64,000 bases of DNA from Comamonas sp. 26 (GTDB lineage Bacteria > Pseudomonadota > Gammaproteobacteria > Burkholderiales > Burkholderiaceae_C), in NCBI RefSeq assembly GCF_002754475.1, contig NZ_PEFL01000001.1, positions 310,001 through 374,000 of the forward strand, in the 5' to 3' direction. The position numbers were made by a program, and so were the translations under genes. The notes under the pieces were generated by a model. That model made no database searches. It was not told where the DNA came from and saw nothing but the letters and a program-made list of their open reading frames with translations. The stretch's first letter is position 1; each line of letters begins with the position of its first letter. This document shows, piece by piece, positions 57,257 to 64,000 of this stretch.

Positions 57257-57730
57257 TCAGCTTTTCTGAGGCGCGCTCTGCTCCTGCGACTGAATGGCTT
57301 CGCGCCATGCGCGGGTCTGTTCGGTATCGGGCAGGGCCTGTGGCTTGCCGGTGGCATCAATGGCCACATAGGTGAGGCGGGCCTCGGTCACTTTGACGAA
57401 CTTGCCCTGATCCGAGAAACGCTCGGCAAACACTTCCACATTCACCGTGACCGAAGTACGGCCCACATGCAGCACACCAGCGTAGAAGGACAGAATGTCA
57501 CCCACGCGTACGGGTTGCTTGAAGATGAATTCGTTAACCGCCACGGTCACCATGCGGGTGTGGCTGATACGCTGGGGCAGCACCGAACCTGCCAAGTCCA
57601 CCTGAGCCATAACCCAGCCACCAAAGATGTCGCCATTGGCGTTGACATCGGCAGGCATGGGGACGACTTTGAGAACCAGCTCCTTGTCTTCGGGCAAAGG
57701 CTGAGGGGGGAGGTTGGGACGAGGAGGCAT
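57257..57730 (-). CDS. yciA: Acyl-CoA thioesterase (YciA family)
   Basis: 157 residues, single hot-dog domain with VVPMPADVNANGDIFGGWVM, in which the Asp of NGDIFGGW is the catalytic residue in YciA-type hydrolases. NEFIFKQPVRVGDILSFYAG and VTEARLTYVAIDATGKP follow. A GTG at 57745 would add five residues; ATG 57730 is chosen. Broad-specificity acyl-CoA hydrolase by family. Divergent from the Slp-like lipoprotein gene by 112 bp. Confidence 0.9.
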   Translation of the reverse strand: MPPRPNLPPQPLPEDKELVLKVVPMPADVNANGDIFGGWVMAQVDLAGSVLPQRISHTRMVTVAVNEFIFKQPVRVGDILSFYAGVLHVGRTSVTVNVEVFAERFSDQGKFVKVTEARLTYVAIDATGKPQALPDTEQTRAWREAIQSQEQSAPQKS

Positions 57731-57842
57731 GGACGTGGCGGGCACAGAGGTAAAGGTGGAATTGTGCTTCAGATTCGGGTTTCTACTATGTTGTTGGGAA
57801 ATACCAATGACGCCGGTTCAGGAAAGTGAGTAGGTGATAACT

Positions 57843-58427
57843 ATGAATCTGCTTTCGTGGTCGTTGTATGGGGTGTTGTGCTTAGTGCTGGCGGGCTGCG
57901 GCGTTTCTCCTGTGGTATCCGATCAGACAAACGATCCTGTATCGCAGCCGTTGCATGGCTTGAGCGGCACAGCCGAGCAGTCATCCTGCCATCCCGATCG
58001 ATTGACGGACGCTGAGGCACAGGCGGGGCCATTTTCGGCACTCATTCCCACGCAAGCACTGGCCGCCAGCGCAAAGGGCAAGCGCGTTTGCTGGGGCGGA
58101 GGTCTGCGCACGATAGAGGCCGTTGAAGGAGGGCGCGACTGCGTGGTCATGTTGTATGCAGAGCTCAGCCCCAGGGTCTTTTGGGGCTGGCCGCGGGATG
58201 CATCGTTCTTCAAGGCCTGCGGGCCGGGACACTATGACAGGACGCTGCTGCAGCCGTTTACCTTGGGCTTGATTGGCGGAAAAGTAACGGGGCAGGCAGA
58301 ATTCGCAGGCGATTCCATTCCCGTCATAGAAATAGAAGCCTTTTACCGAGCTTCAGACTGCCTGCAAGGCGATACCTCCCCACAATGCGTTCACGGCCAC
58401 ATACAACCCCTGAAGAAGCCGCAGTAG
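57843..58427 (+). CDS. Slp-like outer-membrane lipoprotein
   Basis: 194 residues. The lipobox VLCLVLAGCG directs lipidation at the Cys, so the protein is a processed lipoprotein. WGGGLRTIEAVEGGRDCVVM and SFFKACGPGHYDRTLLQPFT with PVIEIEAFYRAS resemble the Slp family (starvation lipoprotein). Extra cysteines in the mature part may pair. The final 43 bases overlap the ABC transporter gene in another frame, so the two are likely translationally linked. Role unknown. Confidence 0.75.
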   Translation: MNLLSWSLYGVLCLVLAGCGVSPVVSDQTNDPVSQPLHGLSGTAEQSSCHPDRLTDAEAQAGPFSALIPTQALAASAKGKRVCWGGGLRTIEAVEGGRDCVVMLYAELSPRVFWGWPRDASFFKACGPGHYDRTLLQPFTLGLIGGKVTGQAEFAGDSIPVIEIEAFYRASDCLQGDTSPQCVHGHIQPLKKPQ

Positions 58428-60205
58428 CGGCGCCCAACCCCGACTCGGCCACGCTGCGCCGCCTCCTCCCCTACATCCTGCAATACAAGTGGCGCGTGCT
58501 GGCGGCGCTGCTGTTCATGCTGGGCGCCAAACTAGCCAACGTGGGCGTGCCAGTCCTGCTCAAGCATCTGGTCGATGCGCTGGACATAAAGCCCGGCCAG
58601 GCCCAGGCGGTGCTGGTCGTGCCCGTGGGGCTGCTGCTGGCCTATGGTCTGCTGCGCTTTTCCACCACCATGTTTACCGAGCTGCGCGACCTGGTCTTTG
58701 CCAAGGCCACGCAGGGCACTTCGCGCTCGATTGCACTTTCGACTTTTCAGCATCTGCATGCGTTGGGCCTGCGCTTTCACCTGGAGCGTCAGACCGGCGG
58801 CATGACACGCGATATCGAGCGCGGCGTGCGCAGCACGGAATCGCTGATCTCGTACTCGCTGTACTCCATCCTGCCCACGCTGATCGAAATGGGGCTGGTG
58901 CTGGGCATTCTGGCTGTGCGTTTTGACGCCTGGTTTGCCATCATTACGCTGGCAGCGCTGGTGTTCTACATCACCTTCACCGTCACGGTGACCGAGTGGC
59001 GCACGCGCTTTCGCAAAGAAGCCAATGCGCAGGAGTCTGCGGCGCACACCAAAGCCATTGATTCGCTGCTGAACTACGAGACCGTCAAGTACTTCAACAA
59101 CGAAGAGTTTGAAGCTGCACGCTACGACGAAAACCTGGAAAAGCTGCGCCGTGTGCGCCTGAAGAGCCAGACCACGCTGTCCATGCTCAATGCAGGTCAG
59201 CAGCTCATTATTGGTACTGCGCTGGTCGCTATTTTGTGGCGCGCCACGCAAGGTGTGGTCGATGGTCGCCTGACCTTGGGTGATCTGGTCATGATCAACG
59301 CCTTCATGATTCAGCTCTATATTCCGCTCAATTTCCTGGGCGTTATCTACCGAGAGATCAAGCAGAGCCTGACCGATCTGAACCGCATGTTCACGCTGAT
59401 GGATCAAGACCGCGAGGTGGCCGATGCCCCCAATGCACAGCCGCTGCCGCTGAATGGACAACCGCCTGAAGTGCGCTTTGAAAACGTGCAGTTTGCGTAC
59501 GACCCGGCACGTCCCATCCTGCACGATCTGAGCTTCACGATTCCGGCAGGAAAAACGGTGGCCGTGGTGGGGCCCTCTGGCTCGGGCAAGAGCACGCTGG
59601 CGCGACTGCTGTTCCGCTTCTATGACGTGCAGGCTGGTAATGTGCGTATTGCTGGCCAAGATATTCGCGATGTGACCCAAACCAGTGTGCGCCGTGCCGT
59701 GGGTATCGTGCCGCAAGACACCGTGCTGTTCAACGATACGGTGGAATACAACATTGCCTACGGCCAGCCCGGTGCCTCGCATGATCAAGTCGTAGCCGCC
59801 GCCAAAGCCGCGCGTATTCACGACTTTATTGTGGCTACGCCGCAGGGTTATGAAACGCGCGTGGGTGAACGCGGCCTCAAACTCTCTGGCGGTGAGAAGC
59901 AGCGCGTGGCCATTGCCCGTACATTGCTGAAAAATCCGCCCATTCTGATTTTTGATGAGGCCACATCGGCCTTGGACAGCGCCAATGAACGTGCCATTCA
60001 AAATGAGCTGCGCAGCGCTGCGCAAGGCAAGACATCGCTGGTGATTGCGCACCGTTTATCTACCGTGGTTGAAGCGCATGAAATTCTGGTTATGGACAGC
60101 GGCCGCATCATCGAGCGCGGAACGCATGACGAGTTGCTGGCTGCAGGTGGGCGCTACGCCAGCATGTGGAATATGCAGAACGCCGGTGAGGTGACGGACG
60201 CCTGA
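58385..60205 (+). CDS. Atm1/heavy-metal-type ABC exporter (membrane-ATPase fusion)
   Basis: Homodimeric type IV ABC exporter of 606 residues. Six transmembrane helices occupy about residues 20-310. The ATPase part has Walker A VGPSGSGKSTLARLL, the signature LKLSGGEKQRVAIARTLLK and Walker B PILIFDEATSALDSAN, and the final H-loop IAHRLSTVVEAHE. NYETVKYFNNEEFEAARYD and the RQTGGMTRDIERGVRS block are typical of Atm1/NaAtm1-like transporters of glutathione conjugates or metals. ATG 58385 lies inside the preceding gene. Substrate not determinable. Confidence 0.93.
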   Translation: MRSRPHTTPEEAAVAAPNPDSATLRRLLPYILQYKWRVLAALLFMLGAKLANVGVPVLLKHLVDALDIKPGQAQAVLVVPVGLLLAYGLLRFSTTMFTELRDLVFAKATQGTSRSIALSTFQHLHALGLRFHLERQTGGMTRDIERGVRSTESLISYSLYSILPTLIEMGLVLGILAVRFDAWFAIITLAALVFYITFTVTVTEWRTRFRKEANAQESAAHTKAIDSLLNYETVKYFNNEEFEAARYDENLEKLRRVRLKSQTTLSMLNAGQQLIIGTALVAILWRATQGVVDGRLTLGDLVMINAFMIQLYIPLNFLGVIYREIKQSLTDLNRMFTLMDQDREVADAPNAQPLPLNGQPPEVRFENVQFAYDPARPILHDLSFTIPAGKTVAVVGPSGSGKSTLARLLFRFYDVQAGNVRIAGQDIRDVTQTSVRRAVGIVPQDTVLFNDTVEYNIAYGQPGASHDQVVAAAKAARIHDFIVATPQGYETRVGERGLKLSGGEKQRVAIARTLLKNPPILIFDEATSALDSANERAIQNELRSAAQGKTSLVIAHRLSTVVEAHEILVMDSGRIIERGTHDELLAAGGRYASMWNMQNAGEVTDA

Positions 60206-60246
60206 AGGCGTTGCATAAAGTTCAATAAAGAGAGGGAGATGCAGGT

Positions 60247-61725
60247 ATGAACATCAAGGCCATGCAGAAAAGGCTGCGCGACTTTGCTGCTGCCAGAGAG
60301 TGGCAGTCTTTTCATTCGCCAAAAAATCTGGCGATGGCCTTGATGGTGGAGTCTGCCGAGCTGCTAGAGCTTTTTCAGTGGCTGACGACGGAGCAATCTC
60401 ATACCTTGACCCAAGAGCCCGCAGACCGGGAAAAGGTCTCTGATGAAATCGCCGACGTGTTTCTATACCTGCTGCAAATTGCCGATCGCACAGGAATTGA
60501 TCTTGAAGAAGCGGTAGAGAAAAAGCTCATCAAGAATGCGCAGAAGCACCCGGCCAAGTTGCCAGAATTGCTGCCTTTGGGCCCCAAAGTTCACTTGCTG
60601 GTTGATTGCGAGAATGTGAACCCGGATGCGGAGGCGCTAAGGCAACTGGTGCCTGAAGGAACAGATGTCTGGCTGTTTCACGCACCGGCGCAGCGGGTTG
60701 ATGCGGAAAAGCATAAGAGAGCCTATGGCGCAAATAGCGTGACGCTGGTAGAGCGCACAGGTGCAGGCAAGAACGCGCTGGATTTTCAGCTGAGCTACTA
60801 CGCGGGTTATTTGATGGCAAGGCAGCCTGATGCGCGCTTTGTGGTGGTGTCCAACGACAAGGGCTACGAGCCCATGCTGGAGCATGCGCGCAAGCTGGAG
60901 TTTCAGGCCACGCGTAGCGAGTACAGAAAACCACCCGCGCTGGCCACTCCTGTAACGTCTGTTGTGCAAATCGTAAAGCCTTCTTCGGCTCAGAAAAAAC
61001 CGGCTCCGGCAGATAAAAAAGTACCTCCAACGCTTTCCAGGCCCAAGCTTGTGCCGGTTGCGAAACCGCTTGTGGCTGAACCCACTTCTGCACGCATTGC
61101 ATTCCGTGCCAAGGATGCATTGAGTCTGCTGGTGGCGAATCAGCGCCCGGCTAGCTGGGAGGCGTTACTGACGCTGACTGAGGGGCTGATTACAGAGCCT
61201 GTAGCAGACAGGCAAGACTTGGCGCGAAAGGCTTGCCGGGTACTGCAGCTTTATGGAACGGTGATGCTTGATGTGGATGGAGGTAACCTGCGCTACCGCT
61301 GTCCTGATCCCGTACAACGGGGAGCTTCTTCAGAGCTTGTGGTCAATGCGGTGCAAGCGCCAGCATTGCCAGTGGTTGCCGTAGAAAAGGCGGCAATCCA
61401 GCCCAAGACAGCACCTAAACCCAAGCTTGTAAAGCCGCTGGCCGCGAAGCCTAAACAAGGAGTTAGTCATGTTGCCAAACGGGTGGAGTTGTCGTTAAAA
61501 AAAATGACCAGCAATCGCCCGGTTCGCCGCGATGGTCTGATGAAGGTCATAGCCACTCATATTGGGACAGTGCTTGCTCCCGTAATGACGCCGGAGCAGG
61601 TATGCATTGTTTTGCAGTCGCGACAGGTGGTGCGGATTTCACCCAAGGGCGAGGTGGCATATTTCAGTCAAGCAAAGGCGGTCAAGTCGCCTGAGGCCCA
61701 AGTTCAGCAGCAGACTTCGGGGTGA
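60247..61725 (+). CDS. MazG-like pyrophosphatase fused to a PIN/NYN nuclease-like domain
   Basis: 492 residues. Residues 1-105 are a MazG/RS21-C6-like NTP pyrophosphatase: E35-x-x-E38 (ALMVESAELLELFQW), E67-x-x-D70 (SDEIADVFLYLLQIAD) and the closing KKLIKNAQKHP. Residues 113-225 look like a PIN/NYN nuclease: Asp120 and Glu122 (HLLVDCENVNPD), Asp179 (GKNALDFQLSYYAG) and Asp204 (VVVSNDKGYEPML). Two C-terminal units of about 60 residues (near 285-350 and 420-480) resemble winged helices, separated by Pro/Lys-rich linkers. ATG 60247 has a good ribosome binding site (GAGGGAGATGCAGGT). It stands alone downstream of the ABC exporter. Function unknown; nucleotide sanitation plus RNA cleavage is inferred. 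Confidence 0.78.
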   Translation: MNIKAMQKRLRDFAAAREWQSFHSPKNLAMALMVESAELLELFQWLTTEQSHTLTQEPADREKVSDEIADVFLYLLQIADRTGIDLEEAVEKKLIKNAQKHPAKLPELLPLGPKVHLLVDCENVNPDAEALRQLVPEGTDVWLFHAPAQRVDAEKHKRAYGANSVTLVERTGAGKNALDFQLSYYAGYLMARQPDARFVVVSNDKGYEPMLEHARKLEFQATRSEYRKPPALATPVTSVVQIVKPSSAQKKPAPADKKVPPTLSRPKLVPVAKPLVAEPTSARIAFRAKDALSLLVANQRPASWEALLTLTEGLITEPVADRQDLARKACRVLQLYGTVMLDVDGGNLRYRCPDPVQRGASSELVVNAVQAPALPVVAVEKAAIQPKTAPKPKLVKPLAAKPKQGVSHVAKRVELSLKKMTSNRPVRRDGLMKVIATHIGTVLAPVMTPEQVCIVLQSRQVVRISPKGEVAYFSQAKAVKSPEAQVQQQTSG

Positions 61726-61827
61726 ATGCTGATGTGAGCGATATGGCTTGCTCAGGCGCTCCACAATGGAGCTTCTACCGTTCTTCGGATTGCGAATGCT
61801 TAGCGCTTCGCAATCGCTTTGTCTGCC

Positions 61828-62769
61828 ATGAAGCCAGTCCTGCTCGTTCTGAATTTGCAAGTCCCAGCCCATCTTGAACAGATGGTGCAGACCTTCCCCG
61901 ACTTTGACGTGATCTACGCGCCCGAGGCCGATCAGGCCGAAGCAGCGATTGCCGCCAATGGCGCGCGCGTGCAATGCGTGTGCACGATTGGCGCAACAGG
62001 CCTGTCCGCCGCGCAGATGCAGCGCATGCCCAAGCTTTCGCTGGTCTGCGCCATGGGCGCGGGCTACGAGAACATTGACGTGGCCCATGCCAAGGCGCAT
62101 GGCATTGCTGTGGGCAACGGTGTGGGCACGAATGACGAGTGCGTGGCCGATCACGCCATGGGCCTGCTGATTGCGGCTGTGCGCGGCATCGTCAAGCTGG
62201 ACAAGGCCACGCGCGCAGGCATCTGGCGCTCGGCCATGCCGCTTCCCGCCAATGTCTCAGGCAAGCGTCTGGGAGTCGTGGGTCTGGGCACCATTGGCGC
62301 AAAAATCGCCAAGCGTGCGGCAGCGTTTGACATGCCCATCGGCTATCACAACCGTCAGCCACGCGATGGTGTCAGCCATCAGTACTTTGGCGATTTGCTG
62401 GCGTTGGCGGCCTGGGCCGATGTGCTGCTGGTGGCTACGCCCGGCGGTGCCGGTACCAAGCACTTGATCAATGCCGAGGTGCTCAATGCGCTGGGCGAAA
62501 AGGGCGTTTTGGTAAACATTGCACGCGGCTCGGTGGTCGATACCCAGGCGTTGGCCCAAGCTGTGCGCGAAGGCCGTGTGGCCGGTGCTGGCCTTGATGT
62601 GTACGAAAGCGAGCCGCTTCCGCCGCAGGAGCTGATCGAGCTGGACTCCGTGGTGCTGACGCCCCATGTGGGGGGCTGGTCGCCCGAGGCGGTGCAGAAC
62701 TCTGTGGACCGATTTATCGCCAATATGCGCTTCCATCTGAATGGCAAACCGCTTGTATCGCCAGTCTAA
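61828..62769 (+). CDS. D-2-hydroxyacid dehydrogenase
   Basis: NAD(P)-dependent dehydrogenase or reductase of 2-keto acids, 313 residues. The Rossmann motif is LGVVGLGTIGAKIAKRA. The catalytic Arg lies in VNIARGSVVDTQALA, the Glu in GLDVYESEPLPP and the His in VVLTPHVGGWSPEA. The start at ATG 61828 is chosen over TTG 61819. Resembles hydroxypyruvate or glyoxylate reductases, but substrate preference is open. A strong terminator follows. Confidence 0.92.
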   Translation: MKPVLLVLNLQVPAHLEQMVQTFPDFDVIYAPEADQAEAAIAANGARVQCVCTIGATGLSAAQMQRMPKLSLVCAMGAGYENIDVAHAKAHGIAVGNGVGTNDECVADHAMGLLIAAVRGIVKLDKATRAGIWRSAMPLPANVSGKRLGVVGLGTIGAKIAKRAAAFDMPIGYHNRQPRDGVSHQYFGDLLALAAWADVLLVATPGGAGTKHLINAEVLNALGEKGVLVNIARGSVVDTQALAQAVREGRVAGAGLDVYESEPLPPQELIELDSVVLTPHVGGWSPEAVQNSVDRFIANMRFHLNGKPLVSPV

Positions 62770-62783
62770 GTGCTATTGAATTG

Positions 62784-62862
62784 AAAGCTACTTGCGCATG
62801 ATTAATAAAGAGCCCGAAGTGCTTTGGTACTGAAATCATTCCATATCAAGCGCTGACAGCTT
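62784..62862. repeat. Interspersed palindromic repeat, well-preserved pair
   Basis: Left arm AAAGCTACTTGCGCATGAT (62784-62802) and right arm ATATCAAGCGCTGACAGCTT (62843-62862) are inverted, with about 40 bp between them. Same family and spacing as 24561-24640. Confidence 0.7.
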
Positions 62863-62878
62863 TGATATTCGTAGCAAT

Positions 62879-62916
62879 AAAAATCCCCGTCACAGTTCAC
62901 TGTGGCGGGGATTTTT
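62879..62916 (+). terminator. Strong intrinsic terminator
   Basis: AAAAATCCCCGTCACAGT and ACTGTGGCGGGGATTTTT pair over 18 bp with one G.U pair and a 2-base loop. It terminates the dehydrogenase transcript and can act on the other strand too. Confidence 0.93.
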
Positions 62917-62999
62917 ACTTTTTATTCACCAGATCTCGATCTGTGCAGGGCGCAAGCCAGTGACACCGAGCAAGAGCCGCCTCGCGGCGAAGGTGTCGT

Positions 63000-63046
63000 C
63001 CCCCTCCCGAAGAGAGAGGGGGAAGCCGCGCAGCGGCTCAGGGGGA
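63000..63046. repeat. GC-rich double-hairpin repeat, copy 2
   Basis: CCCCCTC pairs with GAGGGGG (63000-63022) and AGCCGC with GCGGCT (63024-63038), then CAGGGGGA. Same order and near-identical sequence as 25900-25947. It directly follows the stop of the minus-strand binding-protein gene. Confidence 0.7.
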
Positions 63047-63048
63047 CT

Positions 63049-64000
63049 TTACTTCTGACTTGCAGCAATGGCCTTTTCAGCCTTGTCCACCAGAGGTGCG
63101 CCGATCTGGCTCTTCCACTTGTCGAACACGGGGCGGGTGGCCTTGACAAAAGCTTCGCGCTCGGCGGCGTTAGGCGTGGTCACGGTCACGCCTAAACCTG
63201 CCAGGTCTTTGAGCAAGGGCTTGTCGGCCTCAACCAGACCTTTGCGGGCGATGGCGACTTCTTCCTTGGCGGCGTCCAGCGCGGCTTGTTTGACGATGGC
63301 CTGGTCAGCAGGTGTCCAGCTGGCCCACACATCCTTGTTGACGACGAAGATCAGCGGGTCGTTCATGTAGCCCCACATGGTCAGGTGCTTCTGGCCCACG
63401 GACTGCAGCTTGGCGGCCATATACACGCCGATGGGGTTTTCCTGACCATCCACAGCGCCACTGGCCATGGCGGGCTGGGCATCGGCCCAGCTCATCTGCG
63501 TGGGGTTGGCGCCCAGTGCAGTGAAGGTGTCCAGGAAAAGAGGTGAGCCGACGACGCGGATCTTCATGCCCTTCAGGTCCGCAGGCGTCTTGATGGCGTG
63601 CTTGGAGTTGGAGATTTCACGGTAGCCGTTCTCACCCCATGCCAGTGGCACGACGCCGCTTTTTTCCAGCGTCTTGAAAATTTCCTGGCCGACTTCACCG
63701 TGTACCACGGCATCCACGGCCTTGAAGTTGGGGAAGAGGAAGGGCATGGAGAACAGGTTCAGCGACTTGACCTGGGGCGACCAGTTGATGGTGGAGCCCA
63801 CTGCCATGTCGATCACGCCCTGACGCAGTGCGGAGAATTCACGCGTCTGATCGCCTTGTACCAGCGATGTGCCGGGGTAGAGCTTGATGTTGATACGGCC
63901 CTGAGTGCGCTCGCGTACCTTGTCGGCCCACAGCTCGCCGCCCTTGCCCCATGGGAAGGCGGTGCCCAGCACCAGCGACATGCGGTATTCGCTCTTGTAC
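63049..64000 (-). CDS. TRAP transporter solute-binding protein (DctP family), 5' end cut off
   Basis: Periplasmic binding protein for a TRAP carboxylate transporter. The visible 317 or so residues include LGTAFPWGKGGELWADKV, KAVDAVVHGEVGQEIFKTLE, MKIRVVGSPLFLDTFTALGA and SGAVDGQENPIGVYMAAK, in which QENP is the DctP substrate-contact block. An ATG at 63981 lies in frame, but coding sequence continues upstream past base 64000, so signal peptide and true start are outside. Ligand unknown. DctQ and DctM genes would be expected beyond the window or elsewhere. Confidence 0.93.
   Translation of the reverse strand, partial: YKSEYRMSLVLGTAFPWGKGGELWADKVRERTQGRINIKLYPGTSLVQGDQTREFSALRQGVIDMAVGSTINWSPQVKSLNLFSMPFLFPNFKAVDAVVHGEVGQEIFKTLEKSGVVPLAWGENGYREISNSKHAIKTPADLKGMKIRVVGSPLFLDTFTALGANPTQMSWADAQPAMASGAVDGQENPIGVYMAAKLQSVGQKHLTMWGYMNDPLIFVVNKDVWASWTPADQAIVKQAALDAAKEEVAIARKGLVEADKPLLKDLAGLGVTVTTPNAAEREAFVKATRPVFDKWKSQIGAPLVDKAEKAIAASQK

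Follow-up and report, generated by a model that had tools for sequence, protein, structure and literature searches.

The window analysed here, 64,000 nucleotides of Comamonas sp. 26 (contig NZ_PEFL01000001.1, positions 310,001 to 374,000), carries at positions 60247-61725 of the plus strand a gene in which a MazG-like domain, a PIN7/NYN nuclease domain and two winged-helix (wH) units are joined in a single chain. The frame begins with ATG, holds no internal stop and encodes 492 residues, and the architecture is confirmed, with profiles, AlphaFold2 prediction and comparison with the PDB in agreement. Based on its unchanged nuclease site, its MARF1-like fold and its basic tails, the fusion probably reads as an RNase first. 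The interpretation favored here, held with evenly balanced confidence, is that of a chromosomal, probably RNA-cleaving enzyme whose MazG domain would oligomerise and bind a nucleoside triphosphate (NTP) that tunes or positions the nucleases, catalysis by the MazG site being optional. MazG-PIN7-wH-wH is ordinary in its parts and unusual in their combination, and the evolutionary contrast that it offers is testable. Searches of openly licensed papers found this architecture described nowhere and returned no paper for PF18475 (PIN7), in line with the initial annotation of this DNA, a reading of the letters alone that had recognised no described family.

The two catalytic domains proposed in that annotation are recovered by profile searches. 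Pfam PIN7 (PF18475) covers residues 118-216 (E 3.2e-24, 86 bits against a cut-off of 34), MazG-like (PF12643) covers residues 33-103 (1.5e-13) and MazG (PF03819) matches at 1.6e-5, both above their cut-offs, whereas NYN (PF01936) stays at 19.1 bits, under its cut-off of 24.2. The tails are without a match in the Pfam scan, and the NCBIfam scan of the protein gives no useful match (best E 0.15). The AlphaFold2 model of the whole chain (mean predicted local distance difference test, pLDDT, 80.5; predicted template modelling score, pTM, 0.42) and the PDB comparison bear out an all-alpha MazG fold for residues 1-106 and a PIN fold for the nuclease, as had been predicted, and the tail units show a winged-helix fold. 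The acidic residues that had been singled out also stand where they were placed: E35, E38, E67 and D70, the ExxE and ExxD metal-binding residues of the MazG domain, and D120, E122, D179 and D204 of the PIN/NYN domain.

The nearest sequence relative of the MazG part is mouse dCTP pyrophosphatase 1 (DCTPP1)/RS21-C6 (9e-20). DCTPP1/RS21-C6 enzymes (PDB codes: 2a3q, 6sqz, 7mu5) are all-alpha MazG-like NTP pyrophosphohydrolases of the same type, from which the fusion differs by the attached nuclease, by damage to the metal-binding tetrad in some fused proteins and by one position of the base pocket: His38, Trp47, Trp73 and Tyr102 of DCTPP1 correspond to L10, W19, W45 and Y74, the two tryptophans being aligned and the histidine replaced by leucine. 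Docking described in passages of PMC4491611 places Trp47 and Trp73 within the substrate pocket of DCTPP1, at the dimer interface, and a legend in that paper has the enzyme modelled as a dimer and as a tetramer. Most likely, the MazG part of the fusion would oligomerise and bind a nucleotide.

For the nuclease domain, the closest PIN fold is the NYN domain of MARF1, residues 111-232 matching 349-500; D120 pairs with MARF1 Asp358, provided that this match is ungapped at its start. According to the sections of PMC6294520 that deal with this domain, it has endoribonuclease activity and an acidic patch formed by Asp358/426/427/452. Comparison by hhalign also shows the two tail units to be homologues (probability 97.9, E 3.9e-13), with four comparisons between unrelated domains scoring 0.5 or less; this upholds their predicted similarity, although they measure about 70 residues and not the 60 first assigned. 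Computed charges are +7.8 for linker 1, +1.5 for unit 1, +5.0 for linker 2 and +6.9 for unit 2, so that both linkers and unit 2 rank as strongly basic, and the winged-helix domains would probably bind RNA.

A similar arrangement is found in solo PIN7 proteins of about 200 residues, which share the PIN7 domain of the fusion (hhalign 99.7) but lack MazG and carry one tail unit. This tail resembles unit 2 of the fusion, represented by 116 distinct sequences from a 121-row alignment (probability 79, E 1.5e-5). Bacterial LK-nucleases (DUF88) with single or duplicated OST-HTH winged helices, as presented in parts of PMC2848206, and MARF1, in which the NYN domain is combined with LOTUS repeats according to the sections of PMC6294520 cited above, differ from the fusion in their PIN subfamily, which here is PIN7, and in lacking the MazG domain. 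As for the tails, OST-HTH is absent from the Pfam matches listed for 41 scanned proteins (25 of 32 families), and the TDRD7 motif (PDB code: 3rco) matches the tail weakly in the structural comparison (rank 7, E 0.57). In two genomes of the window's family, solo PIN7 proteins (L200 and L201) have CxxC-type, zinc-ribbon-like segments in place of the winged helix, a further PIN7 architecture, and the precomputed Pfam list gives the PIN7 relative P0139 two extra domains, PF14069 and PF11829.

The two halves of the fusion differ in how well their sites are kept. Among 145 fused proteins, distinct over residues 1-226 and with readable MazG residues (P0005, P0040 and P0090, whose MazG tetrad is gapped, were excluded), the PIN tetrad D-E-D-D is present in all 145, whereas the MazG tetrad E-E-E-D is present in 131 and damaged in 14, so that in this sample the damage is confined to MazG. 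After thinning at 90% identity the damaged fraction is 9/104, and among fused proteins from genome loci it is 3/32. All 138 distinct solo MazG domains have an intact tetrad; this contrast suggests a difference without testing it cleanly, because the solo set, taken from the studied loci by MazG similarity, is biased toward intact sites. Some of the changes are conservative, and "damaged" need not mean "dead" in every copy. W19, H23, K26, N27 and W45 are retained in all 14 damaged rows; changes fall at residue 74 in 13 of them, at 97 in 12 and at 93 in six.

The damage arose more than once, since a single clade of all 14 damaged rows is rejected by the approximately unbiased (AU) test (p 3.9e-5, 66 rows). 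A tree built without the four tetrad columns (149 rows, 4 repeats) requires four changes, and four origins is the best count, although two of the events rest on a single case each, the sequence P0027 and the genome of L066; a single clade of the 12 Acidovorax-type damaged rows is not rejected (p 0.21). Purifying selection acts on the damaged MazG domain in the only testable pair with DNA, L082/L083: dN (nonsynonymous divergence) is 0.026 and dS (synonymous divergence) 0.247 for MazG, against 0.031 and 0.317 for PIN, giving dN/dS of about 0.11 and 0.10, respectively.

The AU test does not reject one origin for the fusion, whether run on MazG (p 0.22, three long rows dropped) or on PIN (p 0.56, a reduced set lacking L035 and L202 among other rows). 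On a long branch, far from the other solo PIN7 proteins (100/100), the fused PIN domains group as one clan with three solo rows, L077, L199 and L202. L077 and L199, proteins with PIN and tail but no MazG, are placed among the fused PINs, and their genomes give no MazG match at E≤1e-3; conversely, the solo MazGs L070 and L071 are nested among fused MazGs. Since the test leaves the fused proteins compatible with a single clade, neither loss of the PIN part in L070 and L071 nor loss of the MazG part in L077 and L199 is claimed.

The fusion is chromosomal. At E≤1e-3, 779 homologues were found among 7998 scored candidates, and 117 of the best 120 of them carry both PF12643 and PF18475. P0040, P0090 and P0114 show PIN7 alone in the precomputed Pfam list; the first two start within the PIN domain, and P0114 aligns across MazG with its tetrad damaged. 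In sampled genomes, the fusion is carried by at least 21 of 299 members of the window's family, the window's own genome counted, and by 6 of 53 of its genus, with named carriers including Comamonas suwonensis, C. badia, Acidovorax, Paenacidovorax caeni, Giesbergeria, Aquabacterium, Aquincola, Ideonella and Rhodoferax. In 120 family genomes PIN7 appears in 16, nine fused and seven without a MazG match in frame; one of the seven, L202, starts at the end of its locus, is possibly cut and is not counted as solo. One genome (G921, that of L092) has two distinct MazG-PIN matches, on contigs C164 and C207. Among the matches listed, none lies outside the window's family, and in 274 genomes of the class and, among the matches listed, in 300 of the order the fusion is seen in the window's own genome only; these draws hold few genomes of the family, with at most five candidates scored per genome, and could hide a diverged fusion. 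In plasmids (72,556 records, 47 matching) and phages (50,697 records, 16 matching), coverage of the query nowhere reaches 80%, the best 15 of each, ordered by letters covered times identity, ending at or before residue 109. In IMG/VR, 25 loci end at or before residue 105, in a search with MazG peptide patterns to which PIN-only genes are undetectable.

The position of the gene (Table 1) suggests where the fusion comes from. The order of ATP-binding cassette (ABC) exporter, fusion and solute-binding protein of the tripartite ATP-independent periplasmic (TRAP) type is shared by L079 (C. suwonensis), L080, L081 (Acidovorax), L086 (P. caeni) and L087 (C. badia), the 2-hydroxyacid dehydrogenase gene standing on either side of the fusion or not being seen in these five loci. 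L084 (Comamonas sp. B21-038) has the exporter in common and no TRAP match, and the carriers L082, L083 and L088-L092 have different neighbors. In L070-L075, L078, L094, L096, L097 and L099, a solo MazG lies between exporter and TRAP gene; L093, with TRAP about 6 kb off, and L095, with TRAP not seen, are variants of this slot, and the named genomes are Acidovorax, with solo MazGs of 106-116 residues. In several genomes of Comamonas/Acidovorax type, the fusion fills the slot that a solo MazG holds in relatives, so that it looks like a solo MazG with an RNase attached. We infer that it is the orthologue of the slot's solo MazG with an added RNase part; the trees leave the direction unproven. No PIN remnant was detected 3' of the solo MazG in 18 loci with six post-MazG queries at E 0.1; in the positive control, the same queries hit at least five loci with the fusion, each at an E value no higher than 1e-10.

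In the mechanism favored here, the basic winged-helix units and linkers would bind RNA, and the PIN7/NYN domain would cleave it using a divalent metal. The N-terminal DCTPP1-type MazG domain would oligomerise the protein, and an NTP bound there may tune or position the nucleases. Where the MazG site is intact, as in this protein, it would hydrolyse the bound nucleotide and so preserve the housecleaning that a solo MazG performs from this slot in relatives. Coupling of MazG to the RNase is a hypothesis; if it holds, nucleotide-pool housekeeping may be linked to RNA turnover within one polypeptide. Against the purifying selection seen in L082/L083, MazG looks relaxed relative to PIN in 6 of 27 damaged pairs, four of them involving P0114, in that they fall under the 5th percentile of the intact pairs. 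The remaining 21 do not, and four of 31 damaged pairs were left out for having too few intact pairs for comparison. The evidence on relaxed evolution of the damaged domains is therefore mixed. A more specific version, which we regard as doubtful, is a nucleotide-gated RNase with a timer: occupancy by a normal, modified or damaged NTP would turn the PIN domains of the oligomer on or off and hydrolysis by an intact MazG would reset them, lineages with damaged sites being pure sensors whose ligand is cleared by a separate solo MazG. If true, sensor-nuclease pairs that hydrolyse their ligand would have in this RNase a counterpart made of one chromosomally encoded protein.

The strongest competitor, unlikely on balance, is that the protein unites two activities without regulatory coupling, NTP pyrophosphohydrolysis for housecleaning and RNA cleavage, which were brought together for the sake of co-expression or proximity, and that genomes with a second MazG are free to lose the fused site. 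This would agree with the occupation of the solo MazG slot and with the relaxation of some damaged domains. Moreover, 22 of 28 genomes with an intact fused MazG have no second, solo MazG match (E≤1e-3, hand count), so the fused copy may do their sole housecleaning of this type, and both searched genomes with a damaged copy own an intact solo MazG: the metagenome-assembled genome BS750m-G8 has the damaged fusion L083 and a solo MazG in the usual slot (L097), and the genome of L066 has one beside its damaged fusion. Nonetheless, this link (2/2 damaged against 6/25 intact, 27 genomes, counted by hand with G913, G920 and G921, all without solo MazG, excluded) is not significant (Fisher p 0.08) and is uncorrected for relatedness. 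Also, the purifying selection on damaged MazG in L082/L083 and the retention of the pocket tryptophans in 14 of 14 damaged copies suggest that a non-catalytic role may persist.

Less probable still, MazG could serve solely as a dimeric or tetrameric scaffold, bringing nucleases and RNA-binding tails together, with nucleotides irrelevant to the RNase. The damage of MazG sites in a domain that is itself conserved, and the DCTPP1 dimer and tetramer models of PMC4491611, would fit such a role, but the tetrad is intact in most fused proteins and the base-stacking tryptophans, possibly interface residues, persist in the damaged ones. Comparison of unchanged nucleases with damaged MazG sites would be a cheap and direct test of catalysis-free nucleotide sensing by MazG-type domains, and, with relatives keeping the unfused enzyme in the slot, the effect of the added RNase could be tested by comparing orthologues. 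The fusion also points attention to a large family of PIN7 and winged-helix proteins.

MazG-type and NYN/PIN-type domains both occur in conflict systems, and this general precedent is what speaks for a phage-defence or stress toxin that would deplete nucleotides and cleave RNA. We consider it very improbable: the best PADLOC match has E 0.014 over a 40-residue stretch of PDC-S13, no plasmid, phage or IMG/VR match among those listed reaches the PIN domain, and the slot is common to several genomes, amid transport and metabolism genes. The initial annotation, which had suggested a two-activity protein for stress or phage response or RNA decay, is partly supported, its defence part finding no support. 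Finally, an artefact of sequencing or assembly that fused two genes, for which no supporting point was found, is refuted by the counts of the same fusion in the family, the genus and the best homologues.

Table 1. Features of the fusion gene and its surroundings (window positions)
Feature	Positions	Strand	Remarks
ABC exporter, 41-bp gap upstream of fusion	58385..60205	+	MsbA-type and other NCBIfam matches, 25 listed, all under cut-offs
MazG-PIN7-wH-wH fusion gene	60247..61725	+	Pfam and AlphaFold2
MazG-like domain, DCTPP1/RS21-C6 type, residues 1-106	60247..60564	+	metal residues E35, E38, E67, D70
PIN7/NYN nuclease domain, residues 113-226	60583..60924	+	acidic residues D120, E122, D179, D204
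Linker 1, basic, Lys/Pro/Ala-rich, residues 227-280	60925..61086	+	mostly disordered by prediction
Winged-helix-like unit 1, residues 281-352	61087..61302	+	HHH-EE in AlphaFold2 model; homologous to unit 2
Linker 2, basic, residues 353-404	61303..61458	+	disordered by prediction
Winged-helix unit 2, residues 405-476	61459..61674	+	isoelectric point 10.6
2-Hydroxyacid dehydrogenase-like gene, downstream	61819..62769	+	matches below cut-offs
DctP-type TRAP solute-binding protein, far flank	63049..63981	-	exceeds TIGR00787 and NF037995 cut-offs

An Rfam search of the window gave no match, and a promoter scan of 57700-63100 gave no site, with 2.3 expected by chance. A strong terminator-like hairpin of 18 pairs with a T-rich tail lies at 62878-62917 on the plus strand, 3' of the dehydrogenase gene, and could be the end of an exporter-fusion-dehydrogenase unit. 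Upstream, the called reading frames 57834-58427 and 58385-60205 share 43 bases, and the exporter probably starts further downstream.
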